Of a stretch of 32,116 nt of DNA, positions 3,618 through 30,455 are shown piece after piece. The notes under the pieces were generated by a model. The model searched no databases, had not been told where the DNA came from, and saw nothing but the letters and a program-made list of their open reading frames with translations. The stretch lies in IMG/VR virus record IMGVR_UViG_3300030430_002164, positions 1 to 32,116 of that record; one strand, 5' to 3'. This DNA comes from a virus. The stretch's first letter is position 1, and every line of letters starts with the position of its first letter. The translations under genes were made by a program, and so were the position numbers.

Positions 3618-3789
3618 AAAGTGTGATGAACGCATAACAATTAGGCGAGTAGAGTTAGGTTACTCTACTTGCTTAACTTGTGGTGAAGCAGAGGCAAAGC
3701 AAGTTACTCACACTGTTGTGCCAATGCACAAATCTAATTATGTTGTGATTACCAACATGAAACATTTAATAGGAGTAAATGTAAAATGA
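3607..3789 (+). CDS. Small zinc-ribbon protein, 60 aa
   Basis: The sequence begins MKCRKCDERI and continues to CLTCGEAEAK, giving two CxxC knuckles about 17 residues apart, which is a typical zinc ribbon. The C-terminal part (TVVPMHKSNYVVITN) resembles small proteins I have seen in marine phages. An ATG two codons upstream (3601) is an alternative start. The gene overlaps both neighbours (ATGA-type junction at 3786). Possibly nucleic-acid binding; the function is not known. Confidence 0.65.
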   Translation: MKCRKCDERITIRRVELGYSTCLTCGEAEAKQVTHTVVPMHKSNYVVITNMKHLIGVNVK

Positions 3790-4685
3790 TAGAAAATTTT
3801 TACGAGTGGATAAATGAACGTCATTCCATTTATCTCGCTAGAGTTAGGGGGGACAGTCCACCATGGACTGAAGACCCTATTTTGCGTGAATATAAATTTA
3901 CAAATCCATTTAGGGAAAACGACCGTACTACTGTGTGGATGAGGCAAAACTGGACAAAGCCTAATGACAATAAGAAGGCTGGAGAAATAATTTTTAATTG
4001 TTGTATGTTCAGAATGATAGGTACAATAGAGTTTGCAAATGCTCATGGTTGGGTCAACGCTGATGCACTGGAGTGGGATCCTGATAAAACAGTAGCCTTA
4101 ATTGAAGATAGATTAAAACAAGGTTTACGAACATTTACTGGAGCGTATATTATAACTAATCAAGGTATTAAGAAACCAAAGTCGGAGGTAGTTGTATATG
4201 AGTTCCTTGTTCCGATATACCAAAACCAAGTCATGCTTGGGTCGGTGGCAACCGAAAGTCAGTCGCTTCAAGCCTTACACAAAGTGTTGGCTACCTATAA
4301 AGGGTGGGGAGGCGGAGGCTTTATGTCATACGAAGTCGTTTCCGACCTCAACTACACATCTGTATTGGACAAGGCGAAAGACCGTTTTACTTGGGCAAAC
4401 GCAGGACCAGGAGCAATGAGGGGTATTAATAGAATACATGGCTATGACCTAAAAAGAATGCACTCTCAAGAAAGAGCTAACAGATTTATGCAAGACATAT
4501 TAGCTGAAAAGCATAAGTATCTTGACATAGAAGTAGTAAATGCTTTTGATGTAGACATGCGAACTATTGAGCATAGCTTGTGTGAGTGGGACAAGTATGA
4601 AAGAGTTAGGCTTGGTCAGGGCAAACCAAGAAGTAAATTTAAAGAAGTAATGTTGCCCATACCGAAAGGACCAGTCAATGAGTAG
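3786..4685 (+). CDS. 5-hmdU DNA kinase helical-domain / aGPT-type thymine hypermodification protein
   Basis: A 299-residue protein. Residues 29-49 (EDPILREYKFTNPFRENDRTT) match the signature of the helical family predicted by comparative genomics to act in thymine hypermodification (alpha-glutamyl/putrescinyl thymine pyrophosphorylase; HMUDK_hel domain). Further conserved-looking blocks are FTGAYIITNQG, YKGWGGGGFMSYEVVSDL and ANAGPGAMRGINRI. Homologues in phages with hypermodified thymine act after replication on 5-hydroxymethyl-dU in DNA, activating or substituting the 5-hydroxymethyl group. I see no P-loop kinase domain, so this is the stand-alone helical form. It is followed directly by a glycosyltransferase, a radical SAM enzyme and a thymidylate-synthase-fold protein, which supports the role. 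The substrate is inferred. Confidence 0.72.
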   Translation: MIENFYEWINERHSIYLARVRGDSPPWTEDPILREYKFTNPFRENDRTTVWMRQNWTKPNDNKKAGEIIFNCCMFRMIGTIEFANAHGWVNADALEWDPDKTVALIEDRLKQGLRTFTGAYIITNQGIKKPKSEVVVYEFLVPIYQNQVMLGSVATESQSLQALHKVLATYKGWGGGGFMSYEVVSDLNYTSVLDKAKDRFTWANAGPGAMRGINRIHGYDLKRMHSQERANRFMQDILAEKHKYLDIEVVNAFDVDMRTIEHSLCEWDKYERVRLGQGKPRSKFKEVMLPIPKGPVNE

Positions 4686-5490
4686 CACAATGATCTATAT
4701 TCCTACACGAGGTAGGATAAGCACACAAACAACTTGGCATAGTATAGGCGATTGGGCAAGAGCAAATGCTTGTTTAGTTTGCCCTGAAGATGAAATGAGT
4801 TATCATGTTAAGTATGGTAGAAACTGTTTATCAAGAGGCGACATTAAGGGCATCAATAATGTACGATCTTTCATAATGCAACATGCAGTAGACAATCAAA
4901 TTGAAAAAATAATTATGCTTGATGATGACTTAATATTTGGTAGAAGAGCAAGTAATGATGCACCTAATCTACGCAAAACAACACAAGAAGAAATGGAACA
5001 GTTGTGGCAACGAATGTTTCATTTACTTGACAGATATGTTCATGTTGGGTTAAGTCCTCGCCAAATGAATGATAAACATTTTCCTGCCGTAACAAAGTAT
5101 GGCATGAGGATGAACGCAGTACATGGTATAAGACCAATGGGTGTAGCTCAATACAATATAAAATACAATGATGTAGAACTTATGGAAGATTATTTTGTGA
5201 CATTATCTTTATTTGCAAATGGAGAGCCTAGTGCTACCATAGTAGATTGGACATGGGATCAACGTGGTGGTAGTGGACAAAGCGGAGGGTGTAGTAATTA
5301 TAGGACACCTGAGTTACAAGAGAAAGCTAGTTTTAAATTAGCCGAACTGTTTCCTGACTTTGTTAAAGTTGTGGAAAAAGAAACCAAAACTGGTTGGGAA
5401 GGAATGAAAAAAAGATATGACGTTAGAGTACAATGGCGACGAGCGTTTAAGGCAGGATGCCCCAAATTCAATCCAAGTGGAGCTAACTGA
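4678..5490 (+). CDS. GT-A-fold glycosyltransferase, probably DNA-base modifying (TAGT-like)
   Basis: A 270-residue protein with an N-terminal strand YIPTRGR, a VCPEDEMSYH segment, KGINNVRSFIMQHA, then a metal-binding DxD-type motif MLDDDL (Asp 82-84). This order matches GT-A glycosyltransferases, and the layout resembles the TET/J-binding-associated glycosyltransferases found in phage DNA-hypermodification operons. I see no membrane segment. The start overlaps the preceding gene by 8 bases, and its last 74 bases overlap the next gene. In this context it may transfer a sugar onto a hydroxymethylated base in phage DNA. The nucleotide-sugar donor cannot be read from the sequence. Confidence 0.68.
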   Translation: MSSTMIYIPTRGRISTQTTWHSIGDWARANACLVCPEDEMSYHVKYGRNCLSRGDIKGINNVRSFIMQHAVDNQIEKIIMLDDDLIFGRRASNDAPNLRKTTQEEMEQLWQRMFHLLDRYVHVGLSPRQMNDKHFPAVTKYGMRMNAVHGIRPMGVAQYNIKYNDVELMEDYFVTLSLFANGEPSATIVDWTWDQRGGSGQSGGCSNYRTPELQEKASFKLAELFPDFVKVVEKETKTGWEGMKKRYDVRVQWRRAFKAGCPKFNPSGAN

Positions 5491-6457
5491 AGGTTGTAAC
5501 CTCGCTTGTTCTTTCTGTGGTATACAACAGATTCGTGACAATGGTGCTGATGGTCCAAGTTGGACTCACGGTAAAAATTCAAAAGAGTATAAGTTTATGA
5601 CTAAAGAAACTTTGTATTCTATAATTAATACAGTCAAAAACAGCAACTGGAATCCTAGGTTTGAGTTTGCAATGCACGGTGAACCTACCATGCACCCTGA
5701 GTACAAAGAGTTTATTCATATCGTGCGAACAAGTTTACCAAAAGCCTCTATCATGATGACAAGTAATGGTGGAGGTTTGCTTGGTGATGTCAATACAAAA
5801 GTAAACGAACTTATGGAAGCTGGACTTAACATATTATTTTTAGATAATTATGAAAGAATTAGGATAGTGGACAAAATAAAAGAAAAATACAATGGTCCAT
5901 ACAAAGTTGTAGAATATCCACAAAACCCAGAAGGCAACCCTCACAAACGAAAAAAGCCTCATGAAAAAATTATTGTAGTTGGTGCTGACCTTACTATTGC
6001 AACGAGTGGAACACACGCACAAGTCAGTAACCATGCTGGATCAGCCTTCCCACTAAACCACAAGCAACAAGGAAAAAGATGTGCAAAACCTTTCCGTGAG
6101 TTAAGTGTTCGTTGGGACGGTAATGTAGCAGTTTGTTGTAATGACTGGACTGGGATTTATAAATGTGGTAATGTAAATGATTATGCAAAAATAGATGACT
6201 TATGGAACAATGATGCTTTTTATTCTGCAAGAGTAAAACTTTACCACGGACAACGAGACTTCGGTCCATGCAATGGTTGTGATAATACTACTATCCGTAA
6301 TGGGTTACTGCCTGACCGTATGGGTAAACAAGACTTACCATTACCTGATAAGACGACTAATTACTTTATTGATAAAGCGTGTGGTGGTAATAGTTATACT
6401 AAAGCAGTGAAGCCAGTTTATGACTTTATTAACTTGCCCTCTGACAAGTTGATTTAG
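5417..6457 (+). CDS. Radical SAM / SPASM-type enzyme
   Basis: The radical SAM cluster motif CNLACSFC gives Cys 27, 31 and 34 (CX3CX2C). FAMHGEPTMHPEY follows as the SAM-binding GE-type motif. The C-terminal half has a SPASM-like Cys set (RCAKPFRELSVRWDGNVAVCC, then CGNV and CNGC) for an auxiliary Fe-S cluster. The first Cys lies only 27 residues in, so the ATG at 5417 is needed, giving an unusual 74-base overlap with the glycosyltransferase gene. Radical SAM enzymes recur in phage base-hypermodification clusters. The most likely role is radical chemistry on a modified base or its side group, but peptide modification is possible. Confidence 0.85.
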   Translation: MTLEYNGDERLRQDAPNSIQVELTEGCNLACSFCGIQQIRDNGADGPSWTHGKNSKEYKFMTKETLYSIINTVKNSNWNPRFEFAMHGEPTMHPEYKEFIHIVRTSLPKASIMMTSNGGGLLGDVNTKVNELMEAGLNILFLDNYERIRIVDKIKEKYNGPYKVVEYPQNPEGNPHKRKKPHEKIIVVGADLTIATSGTHAQVSNHAGSAFPLNHKQQGKRCAKPFRELSVRWDGNVAVCCNDWTGIYKCGNVNDYAKIDDLWNNDAFYSARVKLYHGQRDFGPCNGCDNTTIRNGLLPDRMGKQDLPLPDKTTNYFIDKACGGNSYTKAVKPVYDFINLPSDKLI

Positions 6458-6534
6458 TGGTAGGTAGGTTAGGTGCAAAACACAACGCTCCGCCCCTCGA
6501 GAGGGCGTATACAACCTCAAAGAAAGGGGGACTT

Positions 6535-7530
6535 ATGTTAAAACAACTATCTGGAGTGCATACCTTTGTCGTAGGTAACGTAGCTGAAGCTCTTTACCTT
6601 ACAATACAATCATTGAAAGAAAGTGGTATAGAGGTAGAAACTAGGAATGGCTCAGCAAAAGAGTTTCCTATGCCAGTTGCTATCACTTACAATAAACCTT
6701 TGGAGAGAGTTATATATTATCCTGAACGTGATGCTAATCCAGTGTTTCACTTTATGGAATCACTCTGGATGCTAAATGGTAATAATGACCTACAGTCTAT
6801 TGAGTATTTTAATAAACGTATGCGTGACTTTAGTGATGATGGTGAGTGGCTACATGGTGCTTATGGTCATAGATGGCGTAGACATTTTGTAATCGACCAA
6901 CTACAAATTATTATTCGCAGACTTAAATCTATACCTAATGATAGACGGTCAGTGCTTACCATGTGGGATCCACACGCTGATTTATTAGAACACAATGCTA
7001 GAAAAGACTTACCATGTAATACTCATGTATATTTTACAATAAGAAACAAAAAGTTACATATGACAGTATGTAATAGAAGTAATGATTTGATATGGGGTTG
7101 TTGTGGTGCTAATGCTGTGCATATGAGTTACTTACAAGAATACGTTGCAACAATGGTTGGTGTAGAGGTAGGGACATACACACAGTTTACACAAAACCTT
7201 CATGCTTATAATAGTGTTTTGAAAACATTAGTAGACATGCAACCAGACTATGATTCTTATGATACACGAGGGTTTGAATATCAAGCACCTTTGATAAATG
7301 ACAAAGACTTGTTTGATTATGAATTACAAGCCTTTATGGATGGAAGCATAAACAGAGATTTTAGAAATAATATTTTTACAGAAGTAGCTCTCCCAATGTT
7401 TTGGTTATGGGAAGCATGGAAAAGTAAAAATCATATGGAGTGCATGACAGCTATATCACAAATACAATCGGATGATTGGCGTTTGGCATGTAGAGAATGG
7501 ATAGATAGAAGGAGTGATAAATTAAAATGA
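6535..7530 (+). CDS. Thymidylate synthase-fold enzyme (thymidylate synthase or dUMP hydroxymethylase)
   Basis: The ThyA fold is clear: LESIPNDRRSV-like region, DLPCNTHVYF with catalytic Cys161, then CNRSNDLIWGCCGANAVHMSYL. Asn193 aligns with the Asn of ThyA that recognises uracil. In dCMP hydroxymethylases of the T4 gp42 type this position is Asp, so the substrate here should be dUMP. The product is either dTMP or, given the adjacent hypermodification genes, 5-hydroxymethyl-dUMP. Sequence alone does not separate these. I chose ATG 6535 after AAAGGGGG; an in-frame start at 6457 has no ribosome site. Length (331 aa) is larger than E. coli ThyA (264), with an extended N-terminus. Confidence 0.86.
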   Translation: MLKQLSGVHTFVVGNVAEALYLTIQSLKESGIEVETRNGSAKEFPMPVAITYNKPLERVIYYPERDANPVFHFMESLWMLNGNNDLQSIEYFNKRMRDFSDDGEWLHGAYGHRWRRHFVIDQLQIIIRRLKSIPNDRRSVLTMWDPHADLLEHNARKDLPCNTHVYFTIRNKKLHMTVCNRSNDLIWGCCGANAVHMSYLQEYVATMVGVEVGTYTQFTQNLHAYNSVLKTLVDMQPDYDSYDTRGFEYQAPLINDKDLFDYELQAFMDGSINRDFRNNIFTEVALPMFWLWEAWKSKNHMECMTAISQIQSDDWRLACREWIDRRSDKLK

Positions 7531-7667
7531 CCAATAAACAAATTATAGAAAAAATTAAAAGATGGTTACAAAATAACTTGGAGCATAGGGAACTATCAAA
7601 CGCAACAAGACACGATAGTAAACTTTTATTACAGTACATAGAAAGATTACAAAATGACAAAGGTTAA
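7527..7667 (+). CDS. Small protein, 46 aa
   Basis: The ATG at 7527 overlaps the TGA of the thymidylate-synthase gene (ATGA junction), and its last 14 bases overlap the next gene. It encodes a charged helical peptide starting MTNKQIIEKIKRWLQNNLEH. This ordered pair of overlaps is the main support for a real gene. No family recognised. Confidence 0.6.
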   Translation: MTNKQIIEKIKRWLQNNLEHRELSNATRHDSKLLLQYIERLQNDKG

Positions 7668-7962
7668 ATCAATAATTATACACGAGGTTGGCAACTTATC
7701 ACATCAAGATGCTGAACAATTACATGTGTCAGAACAATCATATGGTGACAGTTGGCGTAAACGAGGGGGTGTTGGTGCTTTTATGATGTTAGCTCGTAAG
7801 TGGGATAGGTTAGAAAAACAAGTAGAAGAACATGGCTATGATGTATTCAAAGCTATAGAAACAGATACTAGACCTGAAGGTATTGTAGATGATATTAGGG
7901 ATTTAAGGCGTTATCTATTATTAGTAGATGCTCACATACAAACAAAAGGTGCGAATGAATAA
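7654..7962 (+). CDS. Small all-alpha protein, possibly DUF1599/Nmad1-like
   Basis: A 102-residue, predicted all-helical protein with a central SYGDSWRKRGGVGAFMMLARKWDRLE and a C-terminal PEGIVDDIRDLRRYLLLVDAHI. The pattern of YGD-W-kRG, then k-dRLE, then a DDi-DL--Y-LL helix resembles DUF1599, which is described as a nucleotide-modification-associated domain, and more distantly the MazG-type helical fold. Its position directly after the thymidylate-synthase-fold gene fits a role in modified-nucleotide metabolism. The family call is tentative. Confidence 0.6.
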   Translation: MTKVKSIIIHEVGNLSHQDAEQLHVSEQSYGDSWRKRGGVGAFMMLARKWDRLEKQVEEHGYDVFKAIETDTRPEGIVDDIRDLRRYLLLVDAHIQTKGANE

Positions 7963-8131
7963 AGTAACATTAGACTCAAAAGCTATAGCTTACTGCGAAA
8001 GCTGTAATGTAAGAATAGAAACAACTATGAGAAAATTAAAAAACAAATGGAATATATGTATGAAGTGCAATACTCCAATGAAAGTAAAGGTAATAAAAGA
8101 TGCAGTTCCCTCTGTTCACGCCACCGACTGA
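7955..8131 (+). CDS. Small zinc-ribbon protein, 58 aa
   Basis: ATG 7955 overlaps the stop of the preceding gene. The protein has CESC and CMKC pairs about 21 residues apart, consistent with a zinc ribbon, in a lysine-rich background (TMRKLKNKWNICMKC). The last 32 bases overlap the start of the DNA polymerase gene in another frame. It may be a nucleic-acid-binding accessory factor; the function is unknown. Confidence 0.6.
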   Translation: MNKVTLDSKAIAYCESCNVRIETTMRKLKNKWNICMKCNTPMKVKVIKDAVPSVHATD

Positions 8132-10007
8132 ATGGGTTATGCCAGATGGCTACCCAGACTTAACACACGCAAAAGAAGTAGCGATAGATTTAGAAACACG
8201 TGATCCTAACTTACTATCACACGGTAGTGGTTGGGCTAGAGGTGACGGTGAGGTTATAGGTGTAGCAGTATCAGCAGGATCTGACTCATGGTACTTTCCT
8301 ATACGACACTTCAATGGTGGTAACCTAGACCCTAAACAAACTCTGGCTTGGGTAAAAGATTTATGTAGTGTTGACCGTGATTACATTATGCACAATGCTC
8401 TGTATGATGCTGGATGGTTGTGGCGAGAGGGTATAGAAGTAAAGGGCAGGATTATTGATACGATGATTGTAGGTGCGTTACTTGATGAAAACAGATTTAG
8501 TTATGCCCTCAACGCTCTTGGCAGAGATTACTTGAGTGAACGTAAGAACGAGGCTGAATTAAATGAAGCCGCTCAGTCGTTTGGAGTCAACGCAAAAAGC
8601 GAGATGTGGAAACTTCCTGCTCACTTTGTAGGTGCTTATGCAGAACAAGATGCAAGTTTAACTTTGAGGTTATGGAAACGATTCCAAAGTGAAATGCAAA
8701 AAGAAGACATACAAGATATATTTGATTTAGAAACAAATGTATTAAGAGTTGTATTAGCTATGCGGAAGCAAGGTGTAAGAGTAGATTTAGAAAAAGCTGA
8801 ACACCTTAAAGTCCAGTTAGAAAAACAAGAGAAAGAAGTGTTACACTCTGTAGGTGGCAGTGACATTGACATCTGGGCGGCTCAGTCCATTGCGAAAGCG
8901 TTTGATAAAGTCGGACTACGTTACCCTCGTACACAGAAGATTGATGCTCCAAGTTTCACCAAAAACTTTCTAGCTAACCATGAACATGAATTACCTCGTG
9001 CAGTTGTAAGAGCTAGGGAACTTAATAAAGCTAGAACAACCTTTATTGATACTATACTTAAACATCAACACAATGGTCGTATCTTTGCTGAGGCACACCC
9101 ACTCCGTAGTGATGGTGGTGGCACAGTCACTGGTAGATTTAGTTACACTAATCCTAACTTACAACAAGTTCCAGCTCGTAATGCTGAGATTGGTCCTATG
9201 ATACGCAGTTTATTTTTACCTGAAGAAGATAGCTTGTGGGGAGCATTTGATTATAGTAGCCAAGAGCCACGACTCGTTGTTCACTATGCTGGATTGATGA
9301 ACTTTACGGGAGCACAAAAGTTTGTTGCTGAGTACCAAAAAGATAGACTTACTGACTTCCATCAGCTCGCGGCAGATATTGTAGGAGTACCACGAAAGCA
9401 AGCGAAAGATATAAACTTGGGTCTGTTCTACGGTATGGGCAAGAATAAATTAGCAGAGCAGTTAGGTTTAGAGTATGAAGATGCACAAGAACTGTTCGCT
9501 CAATACCATGCTAAAGTTCCTTTCGTGCAAGAGTTAGCAACATTTGCTATGAATAAAGCAAGTAAGAAAGGTGTAATAAGAACATTACTTGGTCGTAAGT
9601 GTAGGTTTGATAAGTGGGAGCCAAACATGTATGGAACATTTAAGCCTATGTCTTATGAAGATGCGTATGCAGAACATGGTCCAGCGATTAAAAGATGCTT
9701 TACTTATAAAGCACTCAACAAACTAATACAAGGATCAGCGGCTGATCAAACAAAACAAGCGATGGTAGCCCTACACAAAGAGGGTATTATACCAATGATA
9801 CAAGTACATGATGAGTTAGATATTAGTGTAGGGAGTGAAAAAGAATGCGAAGTAATCACAGAAATAATGCAGGACTGCGTGTCCTTGGAAGTACCGAGCG
9901 TGGTAGACGCGGAACTTGGTCCAAGTTGGGGACAAGCAAAACAAACACTGAGCGACAAACCGTGGACAAGGGGGATAAAAAGTGGACACAGCGAGCAACC
10001 AAATTAA
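8100..10007 (+). CDS. polA: Family A DNA polymerase with 3'-5' exonuclease (Leu762 type)
   Basis: A 635-residue replicative polymerase. Exonuclease motifs are AIDLET (Asp30, Glu32), MHNALYDAGWL and YAEQDASLTLRLW. Polymerase motif A is FDYSSQEPR (Asp384), motif B RKQAKDINLGLFYG (Arg432, Lys436, Leu440, Tyr444) and motif C VHDE (570-572). There is no 5'-nuclease domain. Leu440 sits where E. coli Pol I has Phe762. Marine phage polymerases vary here (Phe, Tyr or Leu), and Leu is the form linked in virioplankton surveys with slower or temperate replication. The ATG overlaps the upstream zinc-ribbon gene, and the 3' end overlaps the HD gene by 26 bases. Confidence 0.96.
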   Translation: MQFPLFTPPTEWVMPDGYPDLTHAKEVAIDLETRDPNLLSHGSGWARGDGEVIGVAVSAGSDSWYFPIRHFNGGNLDPKQTLAWVKDLCSVDRDYIMHNALYDAGWLWREGIEVKGRIIDTMIVGALLDENRFSYALNALGRDYLSERKNEAELNEAAQSFGVNAKSEMWKLPAHFVGAYAEQDASLTLRLWKRFQSEMQKEDIQDIFDLETNVLRVVLAMRKQGVRVDLEKAEHLKVQLEKQEKEVLHSVGGSDIDIWAAQSIAKAFDKVGLRYPRTQKIDAPSFTKNFLANHEHELPRAVVRARELNKARTTFIDTILKHQHNGRIFAEAHPLRSDGGGTVTGRFSYTNPNLQQVPARNAEIGPMIRSLFLPEEDSLWGAFDYSSQEPRLVVHYAGLMNFTGAQKFVAEYQKDRLTDFHQLAADIVGVPRKQAKDINLGLFYGMGKNKLAEQLGLEYEDAQELFAQYHAKVPFVQELATFAMNKASKKGVIRTLLGRKCRFDKWEPNMYGTFKPMSYEDAYAEHGPAIKRCFTYKALNKLIQGSAADQTKQAMVALHKEGIIPMIQVHDELDISVGSEKECEVITEIMQDCVSLEVPSVVDAELGPSWGQAKQTLSDKPWTRGIKSGHSEQPN

Positions 10008-10503
10008 CTACGAAAAGTTAGAAACTATATATGACGCACAATTTATTAATAGATATCACACTGTACCACTTGGCGGATTGAGACAAACAGTGGGTGCTCA
10101 TTCATACGCAGTTGTAGTTTTACTTGACCAGTTGTGGGATAATTGTTCTAAGAATTTATTACTATCAGCCCTTTACCATGATGTGCCAGAAATAGTTCTT
10201 GGTGATATTCCTGCGACTGCAAAGTGGTCATATCCTGATGTACAAAAAGTATTTAAAAAAGCAGAACAAAAAGTTATGAAAGATCTTGATATAGATTTTG
10301 TTCTTACAGACCGTGAACTCAATAGGTTAAAGATGGCAGATATGTTGGAGTTAGTCATGTATTGCCACAAACTAAACGATAGTAACCCTCGCATGAAACT
10401 TATTATGCAGACTGGTGTGAATTACCTTATGGACAATTACTCTCAGCTTCCTGATTTTAATCCAGTAAAACAAGTACTTAGAAAATTAAATTTAGTCTTA
10501 TGA
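9982..10503 (+). CDS. HD-domain hydrolase, YfbR-like 5'-deoxynucleotidase
   Basis: A 173-residue HD protein with His40 (VGAHSYAV), His66-Asp67 and Glu70 in LYHDVPE, and Asp75 in LGDIP, the metal-binding pattern of YfbR-like 5'-deoxynucleotidases. These dephosphorylate deoxynucleoside monophosphates. In a phage with altered thymine metabolism, the enzyme could adjust the dUMP/dTMP pool, which is an inference. It overlaps the polymerase gene and ends just before a clear promoter region. Confidence 0.85.
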   Translation: MDTASNQINYEKLETIYDAQFINRYHTVPLGGLRQTVGAHSYAVVVLLDQLWDNCSKNLLLSALYHDVPEIVLGDIPATAKWSYPDVQKVFKKAEQKVMKDLDIDFVLTDRELNRLKMADMLELVMYCHKLNDSNPRMKLIMQTGVNYLMDNYSQLPDFNPVKQVLRKLNLVL

Positions 10504-10989: not shown

Positions 10990-11156
10990 AGATTACTGTT
11001 AAAGAACTAATAGAAGCGGCAGAAGCAATAAAATCTGATACTTCTTGGGTTAACGATAGTCATACTCAAGCAGAACATCGTGGTATTTGTGAAGGTCTAA
11101 ATTGTCTCGTTGGACATTTTAAATTAATGGAAAAACTTAAAAAGGGGCAAAAATGA
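10986..11156 (+). CDS. Small protein, 56 aa
   Basis: The ATG at 10986 overlaps the preceding TGA (ATGA junction), and its own TGA overlaps the next ATG at 11153. It encodes MKITVKELIEAAEAIKSDTS followed by a helix with Cys/His residues (HRGICEGLNCLVGHFKLMEK). Four-base overlaps on both sides argue for a real gene. Function unknown. Confidence 0.65.
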   Translation: MKITVKELIEAAEAIKSDTSWVNDSHTQAEHRGICEGLNCLVGHFKLMEKLKKGQK

Positions 11157-11656
11157 ATATATTTATGTTAGATAGTAATATGGACAAATGTGTTCAGTAC
11201 CATTGTGATAAACATATTGTCAAAATGCCATTGGAAACTACGCAGATGGTGTGTACTATATCACATAAGGTAGCACCAATATCAGGACTTACTCCACCTT
11301 ACTTGCCAGTTCATGCCAAGCATCCTTGCACTCTGTGGGGTGGTTTGAACAAACGTAACTTCACTTGGCTCTGGTGGTTTGGAGTGGCTTTATGTGCAGA
11401 GTATGAGTATAGGTATGGTCGCAAACATGCTTGTGTAGACGTGTTGTATGATATTGCTTGTCAATGTTGGAATGATTTACCTCCAGGAGAGATGACAGAG
11501 CAACCACAAGCTATGCCTGATGAGTACAAAGACCCTGATGTTATTCAGGCTTATCGTAAATATTATTATTATGAAAAAAGTCGTTTCGCTAAATGGACAA
11601 AGCGACCACGACCATTCTTTATGGAGGAGGGATATTATGGAAAGATTGAAGCCTAA
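11153..11656 (+). CDS. Conserved phage protein with CDKHIVKM signature, 167 aa
   Basis: The N-terminus MNIFMLDSNMDKCVQYHCDKHIVKMPLETTQMV, then HPCTLWGGLNKRNFTWLWW, LCAEYEYRYGRKHAC and MPDEYKDPDVIQAYRKYY, is a pattern I recognise from many cyanophages and other marine phages, where it is annotated as hypothetical. Length is typical. Conserved His, Lys, Cys and Glu residues suggest an enzyme, but no activity is known to me. It overlaps both neighbours. Confidence 0.8.
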   Translation: MNIFMLDSNMDKCVQYHCDKHIVKMPLETTQMVCTISHKVAPISGLTPPYLPVHAKHPCTLWGGLNKRNFTWLWWFGVALCAEYEYRYGRKHACVDVLYDIACQCWNDLPPGEMTEQPQAMPDEYKDPDVIQAYRKYYYYEKSRFAKWTKRPRPFFMEEGYYGKIEA

Positions 11657-17907: not shown

Positions 17908-18378
17908 ATGGCTCAGGTAGCTAAAAAAGTTCAGGCATCTTCTCAAAAGCCTATCGTGTTCACTGGTATTACTGCTTTATCAGCTGAGCGTATCCAAAAG
18001 CGTGAGGGTGTTACAGTTGCTGACATCACTGCTTTTGTTCAGCAAAATGCTGGGGGTAACATCAACAATGTAGGCGTTCGTCTTGTTGAGGGTGTTAACC
18101 TCAAAGATGAGTTACCATTTCCTTGGGAAAAGAAAAAAACCCTTTATGAAGAAAATGGTACAGCAAAGTCCACTCTTCGTGCAAAGGTGGTCTGGCAATT
18201 AATCAATTGCCAAAAGGGTAAAGATCCACTTACCCTTGCAATGGTGGATCAGTTTCATAAGTCAATTAAGGCACGTTCGTTCCACGCTTTAATTGATGCT
18301 CTTAACGGTGGACAGTCTGCAAAGTCTACTAGTTGGGGTAAGAACTTTGTGGAGTTATATGTAATTCCAAAAAAATAA
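17908..18378 (+). CDS. Hypothetical protein, 156 aa, likely highly expressed
   Basis: The gene has a strong promoter, an AGAAAGGAGA site and a perfect terminator, which suggests abundant expression as an independent unit. The protein starts basic (MAQVAKKVQASSQKPIVFTG), includes a helix ADITAFVQQNAGG and ends STSWGKNFVELYVIPKK. No domain recognised. The leader and a few collinear residues (AF..NxGG, TLY/TLW, W..xN, x-G-x-NF near the end) recall the GA/TC-free gene at 19702, so the two may be distant paralogues. That homology is weak. Confidence 0.75.
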   Translation: MAQVAKKVQASSQKPIVFTGITALSAERIQKREGVTVADITAFVQQNAGGNINNVGVRLVEGVNLKDELPFPWEKKKTLYEENGTAKSTLRAKVVWQLINCQKGKDPLTLAMVDQFHKSIKARSFHALIDALNGGQSAKSTSWGKNFVELYVIPKK

Positions 18379-19433: not shown

Positions 19434-19484
19434 ATGTTGATATGGATAGTAGTTCTGTGTATTGCACTAATTATGATGGGGTAA
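19434..19484 (+). CDS. 16-aa single-span membrane peptide with its own promoter
   Basis: ATG 19434 lies at good spacing behind AAGGAG and downstream of a promoter-like leader shared with other genes. It encodes MLIWIVVLCIALIMMG, almost entirely hydrophobic, then TAA. Length and composition match the peptide at 13444. The presence of a dedicated promoter and ribosome site makes it likely to be translated. It may insert in the inner membrane and act on host or phage membrane proteins. No downstream partner gene is evident before the GA/TC-free block. Confidence 0.6.
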   Translation: MLIWIVVLCIALIMMG

Positions 19485-19579
19485 GATGGATGGATGATAT
19501 GGTGGGTGTGTGTTTCATTCAGGGTAGCCTCGCACACGCTCACGCTCGTACACGCACACACACAAATATAGTGTATTAC

Positions 19580-19591
19580 TTAACATGTTAA
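19580..19591. repeat. Palindrome TTAACATGTTAA, left copy
   Basis: A perfect 12-base palindrome near the left end of the GA/TC-free block, followed by the related odd palindrome TTAACAATGTTAA at 19595-19607. An identical 12-mer lies near the right end. Confidence 0.8.
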
Positions 19592-19594
19592 TAG

Positions 19595-19607
19595 TTAACA
19601 ATGTTAA
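19595..19607. repeat. Palindrome TTAACAATGTTAA
   Basis: An odd-length variant of the 12-base palindrome, three bases downstream of it and about 18 bases upstream of the promoter. The pair could be tandem operators. Confidence 0.65.
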
Positions 19608-19624
19608 TTAAAAAAAGTTTTAAT

Positions 19625-19659
19625 AGGGGTTTACATTTAAAATAAAACCGTGCTATAAA
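19625..19659 (+). promoter_or_regulatory. Promoter of the GA/TC-free gene
   Basis: AGGGGTTTACA (19625-19635), an 18-base spacer and TATAAA (19654-19659). The -35 TTTACA avoids the GA of the consensus TTGACA. The following leader (19666-19685) nearly matches that of the 17908 gene. Confidence 0.75.
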
Positions 19660-19701
19660 ATAAGGGCAATAATGCATTAACTTAAACAAAAGGTAAAAAC
19701 T

Positions 19702-20244
19702 ATGTTTAATTTTAACCAAAGTTTACAAGGGCAAGTAAACCAAAAAAATGCCCACCAATTATGCCAAAATTTAGTGGCATTTATTAACGCCAATGGTGGT
19801 GTGCATAAATGGGCGTTACAGCTTAATAAAAACGCCTTTACAGCCAATAACACTTTATTTGGTGGTGTTAATGCTAAAGGCACTTTATGGCAACCTATGC
19901 TAAAGGCACAACAAACCAATAACAGCGTTGCAGGTGCTATTTTATGGGCGTGTGTTAACGGTGCTAATGTTACTGCATTACAAAATGCACCAAAAAAAGT
20001 AACTTGCCCAAAGGCAACATTAAAGTTTGTTAATGGTACAACAATACCAAAACAAGCCAAGCCAATACCATTAAGCCAAATACAAGCAGTAAGCCAATTA
20101 AGTGGCAGTAGCATTTTAGCTAATGGTGGCAGTGCAAATGGTTGTAGGCAAAACGCTTTAAGTGCTATTTTAATTGGCAGTTTTAGCTATATTGCCAAGC
20201 ACACCTACGGCACAAACTTTGGTGCATTAGTACCAATAAAATAA
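19702..20244 (+). CDS. 180-aa protein with no Asp or Glu, encoded without GA or TC
   Basis: The ATG follows AAAAGGT, a ribosome site lacking the usual GA. Codon-position pattern, promoter and terminator support a real gene. The protein has 13 Lys, 1 Arg (AGG), 3 His and no acidic residue, and is rich in Asn, Gln, Ala and Gly. All Ser codons are AGT/AGC, and GGA, ATC, TTC, CTC, GTC, AGA and CGA are never used. Four Cys and three Trp are present. There is a hydrophobic segment SVAGAILWACVNGANVTAL but no clear signal peptide. I do not recognise the family. It may be a distant paralogue of the 17908 product. Function unknown; a strongly basic, possibly nucleic-acid-binding protein. Confidence 0.82.
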   Translation: MFNFNQSLQGQVNQKNAHQLCQNLVAFINANGGVHKWALQLNKNAFTANNTLFGGVNAKGTLWQPMLKAQQTNNSVAGAILWACVNGANVTALQNAPKKVTCPKATLKFVNGTTIPKQAKPIPLSQIQAVSQLSGSSILANGGSANGCRQNALSAILIGSFSYIAKHTYGTNFGALVPIK

Positions 20245-20252
20245 TATTTTTT

Positions 20253-20288
20253 ACCTTGTATGGTTTTACAACCATACAAGGTTTTTTT
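20253..20288 (+). terminator. Strong intrinsic terminator of the GA/TC-free gene
   Basis: ACCTTGTATGGTT (20253-20265) pairs perfectly over 13 bp with AACCATACAAGGT (20270-20282) around the loop TTAC, then seven T. The stem itself contains no GA or TC. The capsid terminator at 30363 has the same TTAC loop. Confidence 0.95.
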
Positions 20289-20302
20289 ATGCCTAGCGTT
20301 AG

Positions 20303-20314
20303 TTAACATGTTAA
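20303..20314. repeat. Palindrome TTAACATGTTAA, right copy
   Basis: Identical to the 12-mer at 19580, just past the terminator and 12 bases before the end of the GA/TC-free block. The two copies bracket the transcription unit, as expected for cassette borders or paired binding sites. Confidence 0.8.
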
Positions 20315-20340
20315 ATAACCCCTTATGAGAATATATAAGT

Positions 20341-28802: not shown

Positions 28803-29423
28803 ATGGCGACAAATATTGATGCCCCTTTTGGTTTACGTCCTCATAACTTATTAGGTTCTGCACCAAACTCAATGGGGCTGACAAGGTACAAAGTACAGAC
28901 AGCGGCGACGGCTGGATCATCTAGTTCAATTTTTCAAGGTGATATGGTCATTCCATTAACAAATGGATTAGTCGATGTTTCAGCGGCAGACGGTGGTAGT
29001 GTAGCAATTCTAGGCGTTATGAACGGATGTGAATATATTGATTTAGACGGGAAACCTCGTTTTGACAATCATTATCCTGGAACATCTTCAATTAAGTCAG
29101 GTACTGAAGCAAGTATTTTTGTCTATGACAATCCAGCACAAGTATTTGAAATACAAGGAGATGCGTCCTTAACTAATGCGGCGACTGCACAAGCTCTGGT
29201 ACACTCAAATGCTGAGGGTACTGGGTTTGGATCAGAAAACGGTGCAACTGGTAAATCTATCGGTGAATTAGCCGTATCTACTGCAGGAGCGACTACAGCA
29301 GGTGATAACTTTAGAATCGTTGGAATCAAAGATGATTTTGACCAAATTGATGTTACATCAGCTGGAGTAATCTTTTTAGTGAAACTGAATGTACATTTTC
29401 ACTTAACTGCTACTGGCTTATAG
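28803..29423 (+). CDS. Head (decoration-like) structural protein, 206 aa
   Basis: Starts MATNIDAPFGLRPHNLLGS and continues with IFQGDMVIPLTNGLVDVSAA, GVMNGCEYIDLDGKPRFDNH. A beta-rich, Gly/Ala/Thr-rich protein similar in layout to phage head decoration or capsid-associated proteins that precede the major capsid gene. AGAAGGAGA site upstream. Whether it decorates the capsid surface cannot be shown from the sequence. Confidence 0.75.
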   Translation: MATNIDAPFGLRPHNLLGSAPNSMGLTRYKVQTAATAGSSSSIFQGDMVIPLTNGLVDVSAADGGSVAILGVMNGCEYIDLDGKPRFDNHYPGTSSIKSGTEASIFVYDNPAQVFEIQGDASLTNAATAQALVHSNAEGTGFGSENGATGKSIGELAVSTAGATTAGDNFRIVGIKDDFDQIDVTSAGVIFLVKLNVHFHLTATGL

Positions 29424-29432
29424 GAGGGTATT

Positions 29433-30341
29433 ATGGCTATTGCAAGATCACAACTCCTAAAAGAATTAGAGCCAGGATTAAATGCTCTATTCGGCTTGGA
29501 GTACGACAGGTATGAAAACGAACATGCCGAAATTTATGACACAGAAACTTCTGACAGAGCTTTTGAAGAAGAGGTAATGTTATCAGGCTTTGGTACAGCA
29601 CCAGAGAAACAAGAAGGAGCCGCAGTTTCATTTGATACTGCAAACGAATCCTTCACTGCTCGTTACACTCATGAAACAATCGCTTTGGCTTTTGCTATAA
29701 CTGAAGAAGCTATTGAGGACAACCTCTATGATAGACTTTCAAGCAGATATACAAGAGCATTAGCAAGATCTATGTCTAATACAAAACAAGTTAAAGCGGC
29801 GAGTGTGTTGAACAACGCTTTTGATAGTACTTTTACTTTTGGAGATGGTAAGGAGCTTTGTGCTACTGATCACCCAACTGCAGGAGGAGGCACTTTCAGA
29901 AACGAACTGTCAACTGCGGCGGACTTAAATGAAACATCATTAGAACAATCACTTATTGATATCTCAGGATTCATTGATGAAAGAGGTCTCAAAATTGCTT
30001 TAATGGGTCGTAAGTTAATTATTCCAGTAAACTTACAGTTTGTAGCTGAAAGATTAATGGCAAGTAACATGCGTCCAGCAACAGCAGACAATGATGTTAA
30101 TGCAATAAGAAACATGGGAATGTTACCTGAAGGGTATGTGGTAAACCACTTCTTAACAGATACAGACGCATTTTTCATTAAAACTGACTCACCAAATGGT
30201 TTTAAACATTTTGAAAGAGCAGGGATTGCAACATCAATGGAAGGTGACTTCGATACTGGTAATGTTAGATATAAGGCGAGAGAAAGATATAGCTTTGGCG
30301 TATCAGATCCTCGTTGTGTATTTGGCTCTCCAGGAGCTTAA
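29433..30341 (+). CDS. Major capsid protein (HK97-like fold)
   Basis: A 302-residue protein. Typical capsid features are the N-terminal helical segment (QLLKELEPGLNALFGLEYDR), ETIALAFAITEEAIEDNLYD spine-helix region, a CATDHPTAGGGTFRNEL loop, KLIIPVNLQFVAERLMASNM, and RYKARERYSFGVSDPRCVFG at the C-terminus. The gene is followed by a strong terminator, as expected for the most expressed virion gene. AGGAGGG ribosome site. Confidence 0.88.
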   Translation: MAIARSQLLKELEPGLNALFGLEYDRYENEHAEIYDTETSDRAFEEEVMLSGFGTAPEKQEGAAVSFDTANESFTARYTHETIALAFAITEEAIEDNLYDRLSSRYTRALARSMSNTKQVKAASVLNNAFDSTFTFGDGKELCATDHPTAGGGTFRNELSTAADLNETSLEQSLIDISGFIDERGLKIALMGRKLIIPVNLQFVAERLMASNMRPATADNDVNAIRNMGMLPEGYVVNHFLTDTDAFFIKTDSPNGFKHFERAGIATSMEGDFDTGNVRYKARERYSFGVSDPRCVFGSPGA

Positions 30342-30362
30342 ATCAAGGATCCCCTTGAAATT

Positions 30363-30393
30363 AAAAGAGCGACTTTACAGTCGCTCTTTTTTT
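30363..30393 (+). terminator. Strong intrinsic terminator after the capsid gene
   Basis: AAAAGAGCGACT (30363-30374) pairs over 12 bp with AGTCGCTCTTTT (30379-30390) around the loop TTAC, with the T-tract running to 30393. Confidence 0.95.
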
Positions 30394-30455
30394 ATGTTAT
30401 AGTTTATACACCTTGACGGGAATAAACCCGACAAAGCCAAGACAAGGAGATTGAT

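Follow-up and report, generated by a model that had tools for sequence, protein, structure and literature searches.

This locus raises the question of why one short segment of a phage genome should be completely free of the dinucleotide GA and its complement TC, and at which level, protein, RNA, or DNA, such a ban operates. The window, i.e., the whole 32,116-nt stretch of IMG/VR record IMGVR_UViG_3300030430_002164 that was analyzed, was scanned for dinucleotide gaps, and zero GA and zero TC were found in 19547-20327 (781 nt), the void being bounded by a TC starting at 19546 and a GA starting at 20327. The initial annotation had placed the empty zone at 19548-20326; the observation is confirmed, and it is far stronger than first stated. 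A geometric estimate of its occurrence by chance gave log10 E = -33.7 (about 10^-34), base composition alone predicts about 88 GA/TC in the void, and similar voids arising elsewhere by composition, for which the same annotation had proposed a check, were not found in the window, where the second-longest GA/TC gap measures 51 nt. No other dinucleotide class produced an anomalous gap in the window scan, and TG and CA are even commoner in the void than expected (O/E 1.24 and 1.39, respectively). Across 4.07 Mb of loci, the gaps classed as anomalous (E < 10^-6) comprised 92 GA/TC gaps, many of them the same place counted more than once, and two others, both from one low-complexity repeat in a single locus (L038).

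The void coincides with a complete expression cassette, and all of the elements that had initially been assigned to it (promoter, ribosome site, 180-codon gene, terminator, and palindromes) were indeed located there. Gene B (19702-20244, plus strand) encodes a 180-aa protein without Asp or Glu, written entirely in GA/TC-free codons and basic because it is acid-free. It is preceded by a predicted sigma70-like promoter (19630-19659, plus strand; TTTACA-18-TATAAA with TGC before the -10 box, identified by consensus match only) and by a GA-free, Shine-Dalgarno-like ribosome-binding site, AAAAGG (19688-19693, plus strand), and is followed by an intrinsic terminator (20253-20287, plus strand; 13-bp stem and T run, -19 kcal/mol, z = -5.75). 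The palindrome TTAACATGTTAA occurs upstream (19580-19591) and downstream (20303-20314) of the unit, with no further copy free of mismatches in the window. In three related loci (L006, L013, and L014), the void starts exactly with ACCGTTAACATGTTAA and ends exactly with TTAACATGTTAACGGT, which form inverted repeats. No Rfam match was obtained in the void region. The regulatory signals themselves appear to be adapted: the -35 box reads TTTACA instead of the canonical TTGACA, which would contain GA, the ribosome-binding site of relatives is AAAGGGG, the GA-containing GGAG is swapped for AAGG or GGGG in the cassettes, and the single GA of L009, L015, and L016 falls within a GGAG.

The extent of the void bears on whether RNA or DNA is the target. 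Coverage of the whole predicted transcript would suit an endoribonuclease or RNA-binding protein that recognizes GA and UC and from which the B mRNA is exempt, but in several lineages the void also extends 54-84 nt upstream of the predicted -35 box and 27-75 nt beyond the T run of the terminator, and GA and TC are equally avoided on one strand, for which an RNA enzyme offers no reason. The pattern of immunity to an mRNA interferase, namely the motif of one strand missing from transcribed sequence only, was not what was observed, and an RNA-level cause is considered improbable. Since the void runs past promoter and terminator and the -35 box and Shine-Dalgarno sequence are adapted, the constraint appears to act on double-stranded DNA.

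A further comparison is provided by a second gene of the same family. Iterative HMM searches revealed two paralogues upstream of terL in the phages of this group; in the window, gene A (17908-18378, plus strand; E = 5e-44) encodes a 156-aa paralogue of B with 14 Asp plus Glu residues and about 103 GA/TC per kb. Across phages, copy A has 82-140 GA/TC per kb and 11-19 acidic residues and copy B is void or nearly so; copy A is an internal control. As B lacks Asp and Glu, whose codons are the main source of GA, the void could be regarded as a by-product of protein composition or of chance; however, codon resampling with B's own amino acids and phage codon usage still predicts 34.4 +/- 4.6 GA/TC in the open reading frame (ORF), with P(0) = 10^-20.6, and the non-coding flanks are equally void, so that this explanation is refuted and retains almost no probability.

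Comparison of A with B also bears on a mutational origin of the void. Conserved serines encoded by TCN in A are encoded by AGY in B 32 times, the codons TCN, ATC, TTC, and CTC are never used by B in the set compared, and the Asp and Glu residues of A correspond to a mixture of Ala, Gly, Lys, Asn, Thr, and Gln. Mutational erosion by a TC-context cytosine deaminase (TC to TT, hence GA to AA) would be strand-symmetric and could empty a region of TC and GA, although nothing beyond the void itself supports it. Against it, a change from TCN to AGY is impossible by one deamination, the replacements of acidic residues are not mainly Asn or Lys and therefore do not carry the signature of a C-to-T deaminase, the G+C content of the void (34%) is near that of the rest of the window (38%), and the 3' border is sharp; such a history is very improbable. 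In addition, among eight close pairs of void relatives, none of 632 substitutions created a GA or TC, compared with a random expectation of 33%; as the pairs were picked for being void, the test gauges maintenance rather than discovery. The absence of GA/TC-creating substitutions, the serine codon switch, and the extension of the void past promoter and terminator therefore point to purifying selection on DNA, which is regarded as very likely. The initial annotation had proposed a strand-symmetric constraint on the nucleic acid, most likely on double-stranded DNA, a view that is supported here.

The cassette is conserved well beyond this phage. A protein search of IMG/VR yielded 16 relatives (67-100% identity), 15 of which have zero GA/TC in the matched gene, the gaps measuring 621-781 nt, and three GA/TC occur in the remaining one. 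Homologues with normal GA/TC counts, which according to the initial annotation would refute such a constraint, do exist, but they are paralogue A everywhere and a few relaxed copies of B. Wider searches down to about 20% protein identity recovered further lineages, many fully GA/TC-free, some eroded, and a few relaxed, and 80 loci around related terL genes included more divergent void cases at the same position, the cassette lying upstream of terL, one per genome. Long and complete genomes of void phages carry one void each (539-918 nt); in G101 the void is only a partly eroded remnant with gaps up to 274 nt, in G045 it is split by contig ends, and six void-less relatives have no GA/TC gap over 103 nt. 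In both G045 (L314 1-370 and the end of L316) and G101 (L245 and L246), the contig ends overlap in or near gene B at no more than 93-96% identity and look like strain variants of B that break the assembly; the overlapping ends of G045 differ at 13 positions without any GA or TC being created. Longer voids (817-1086 nt) that include small adjacent ORFs occur in L122, L123, L243, L235, and L038. The longest of them (1086 nt, L038 268-1354) belongs to a G+C-richer phage and contains two GA-free ORFs, one of which encodes a small basic protein; the B-like ORF of this locus is too divergent for the HMM.

Relaxed copies of B have a GA/TC content of 0.63x background when five records are pooled with two other such copies, as if a former void had decayed. 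The five records (L156, L157, L161, L167, and L171) contain both the PF18723 and the thymidylate-synthase-fold (TS) genes described below, and no HMUDK residue and no gene in the records compared explains the relaxation. In eroded cassettes, GTC/GAC seems to be tolerated more (0.27x background vs. 0.07-0.21x), a weak effect.

What the DNA-level constraint responds to is suggested by a gene cluster 12-16 kb upstream of the cassette, all on the plus strand. It comprises a PF18723 protein (HMUDK_hel, aGPT-PPlase1, "5-hmdU DNA kinase"; 3786-4685, E = 3.4e-52), a TET-associated glycosyltransferase (TAGT, PF20691; 4678-5490, E = 4.7e-17), a radical SAM/SPASM enzyme (5417-6457), a TS enzyme that is a candidate dUMP hydroxymethylase (6457-7530), and a YfbR-like 5'-deoxynucleotidase (9982-10503); polA is also found in this stretch (3786-10503). 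According to two reports, the same gene set constitutes the thymidine hypermodification genes of M6-like phages and of HTVC023P-type pelagiphages of clades V, VIII, and IX (PMC9599517; PMC9476957). Of the enzymes that the initial annotation had offered as causes, a base-modifying enzyme thus gains support from the thymidine cluster, and a TC-context deaminase is contradicted by the switch from TCN to AGY.

The linkage of the cluster to the void is strong. PF18723 and TS genes are present in every void record that covers the cluster region (G016 has the void, but its record begins about 11 kb upstream of it, leaving the cluster region outside), and void-less relatives, including the complete HTVC023P, HTVC027P, 023Pt_psg01, and DSL-LC04, lack PF18723, TS, and the A/B pair. 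Conversely, A/B-family genes were detected in 34 of 50 PF18723 records, usually as a pair; the other 16 records extend no more than about 12.4 kb past PF18723, and in the positive ones the distance from PF18723 down to A is 12.1 kb or more. When gene content was compared using the ORFs of one void phage, only six ORFs (PF18723, TS, copy A, a 107-aa ORF, a Pyr_excise-like ORF, and one short opposite-strand ORF) were shared by all of the void (9/9) and relaxed (3/3) genomes and occurred in none of the void-less ones (0/6). In the window, a 102-aa ORF (7654-7962, plus strand) and the Pyr_excise-like ORF (11153-11656, plus strand; pyrimidine-dimer glycosylase family, slightly under the Pfam cut-off) are co-conserved with the void. 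The decorating enzymes vary, being either TAGT plus radical SAM or a GT4-like glycosyltransferase (sub-threshold in Pfam), with PF18723 and TS constant, and some glycosyltransferase accompanies PF18723, TS, and the A/B pair in the tested genomes. No void was found close to PF18723 itself in 1.42 Mb. In one genome (G011), the TS ORF (29370-30437) has one in-frame TAA in its match to the TS of the window, possibly reflecting a later start or an error. The initial annotation had mentioned neither the paralogue pair nor the hypermodification cluster nor their co-occurrence. A link of the void to thymidine hypermodification is considered probable.

It is proposed, with somewhat better than even confidence, that the void marks a transcription unit exempt from DNA modification, in a phage that hypermodifies its thymines at TC. 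The cluster would convert T to 5-hydroxymethyl-U and then decorate the U preceding C, the target being the T of TC, the base opposite the A in GA. Since TC is missing from both strands of the cassette, from upstream of the promoter to past the terminator, no position there could be decorated. Hypermodified T of phages M6, ViI, and phiW-14 is found in TG or TC, which has been attributed to the 5-hmdU DNA kinase (PMC6449724). Because TG and CA are unrestricted in the void, specificity for TC only is inferred here; we predict a TC-specific thymidine modification whose specificity is read from the void itself, in which case about 17% of T would be targets.

The same DNA-level avoidance could have another cause, i.e., a nuclease or base-excision enzyme, either a host type IV enzyme or a phage-encoded one such as the Pyr_excise-like protein, that acts at modified or unmodified TC/GA and leaves the cassette as an intact, expressible fragment, with B serving as an antidote or anti-restriction protein. 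Symmetric avoidance of GA and TC in DNA fits this explanation, as does the co-conservation of the Pyr_excise-like ORF with the void, but the match of that ORF lies under the Pfam cut-off, no known enzyme that would act in this way on a two-base target came to light, B is unlike known anti-restriction proteins (Pfam, PHROGs), and the remaining genome would stay exposed; this possibility is considered unlikely. Modification of guanine was the first idea: phage CAjan carries a 7-deazaguanine (DpdA) modification at GA, which would also target GA/TC. It was dropped when the thymidine cluster was found in the window, among whose scanned proteins there is no dpdA or queuosine-pathway gene.

To return to the modification-exempt cassette, its benefit might lie in transcription. 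On a template with kinase-phosphorylated 5-hmU, transcription by E. coli RNA polymerase was 10% of that on the 5-hmU template and 37% of that on natural DNA (PMC6457204), and bulky major-groove groups usually inhibit bacterial RNA polymerase (PMC11550810). Given these losses, the simplest purpose of the void would be to keep one unit readable by host RNA polymerase on hypermodified DNA, a suggestion to which we give slightly less than even credence. If decoration hinders host RNA polymerase, transcription of gene B could proceed on injected DNA or on late DNA that is fully modified, whereas its twin A and other genes would be read poorly, and the basic B protein might help the phage to start its programme, e.g., by enabling transcription of modified DNA; the A/B pair would then give the phage one type of protein from two templates, one that can be modified and one that cannot. 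In its fullest and more tentative form, this amounts to a "plain-text boot sector", in which the duplicate B avoids the modified dinucleotide so that host RNA polymerase can read it and start the infection and A serves on normal DNA; if true, it also implies a TC-specific thymidine-hypermodification system. Several points count against the proposal. Glucosylated hmC was transcribed in vitro (PMC11550810), and sugars therefore need not block RNA polymerase; if modified DNA were unreadable, it would be hard to explain how one exempt gene could suffice. B is relaxed in the five PF18723- and TS-containing records mentioned above, and PF18723 and TS occur without a dinucleotide void in M6, PaMx11, and Pam3, M6 also lacking the A/B pair. 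A Walker A motif is missing from the PF18723 protein, the M6-type separate P-loop kinase (M6 gp54) was found in M6 and Pam3 but has no relative in ten void or partially void phages, and no relative with a known function or fold could be detected for A or B.

In comparison with known systems, void phages resemble M6, ViI, and phiW-14 in having PF18723 beside a TS-fold gene, polA, and a 5'-deoxynucleotidase, and differ from M6 in that a P-loop kinase of the M6 type is absent and a glycosyltransferase (TAGT or GT4-like) is present; M6 gp51 and gp52, for amino-acid attachment (aGPT-PPlase2 and a PLP enzyme), had no match within 10 kb of PF18723. As M6, PaMx11, and Pam3 have PF18723 without the void, the arrangement belongs to one marine lineage. 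The same TS and aG/PT-PPlase1 neighbors and a related terL are described for HTVC023P-type pelagiphages of clades V, VIII, and IX, sometimes together with a 5'-deoxynucleotidase and a beta-glucosyl-HMC-alpha-glucosyltransferase, and the passages of that report on modification genes make no mention of a GA/TC-free gene (PMC9599517). The cultured HTVC023P and HTVC027P have neither modification genes nor the void.

Restriction-site avoidance is normally genome-wide and concerns 4-6 base sites. The void is similar in that a short DNA word is selected against, by which an enzyme is escaped, and different in that the word is a dinucleotide, the avoidance is complete, and it is confined to one transcription unit. 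No earlier description of a GA/TC-free gene or of a comparable case was found in the literature searched, and this is, to our knowledge, the most complete dinucleotide ban in a natural gene. The void connects an extreme signature in the sequence with chemical modification of DNA. If the proposal is true, hypermodification has a price, namely poorer reading by host RNA polymerase, and the cassette shows how phages meet it; the void would also offer a genome-only read-out of the sequence specificity (TC) of a modification enzyme and open a search route to similar systems through single-cassette word voids in phage genomes.

With regard to the proteins, A sequences fall apart from B sequences in the tree, which is compatible with a split from one old duplication, and B evolves faster; deep branches are weakly supported. 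No homologue of B was found in annotated phages and plasmids and none of A in prokaryote genomes, and Pfam and PHROGs gave chance-level matches only. Structures predicted by AlphaFold for B (pLDDT 74.5) and A (79.5) had no Foldseek/VIA match in PDB, and likewise none in BFVD (A only).

Some minor features were observed around the cassette. Its 3' border usually consists of a run of C and then the first GA (CCCCCCTGAcg, CCCCTAGAG), as seen at 20315-20330 of the window and in relatives; this border lies about 140 nt before terL and is perhaps a packaging or regulatory site. In addition, a tiny gene for a single-pass membrane peptide (16-25 aa, e.g., MLIWIVVLCIALIMMG) is located directly upstream of gene B in many phages, for example at 19434-19484 of the window and at about 9091-9162 of L032. 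This gene lies within the void in L235, L241, L243, and L122, and is itself GA/TC-free in several lineages.
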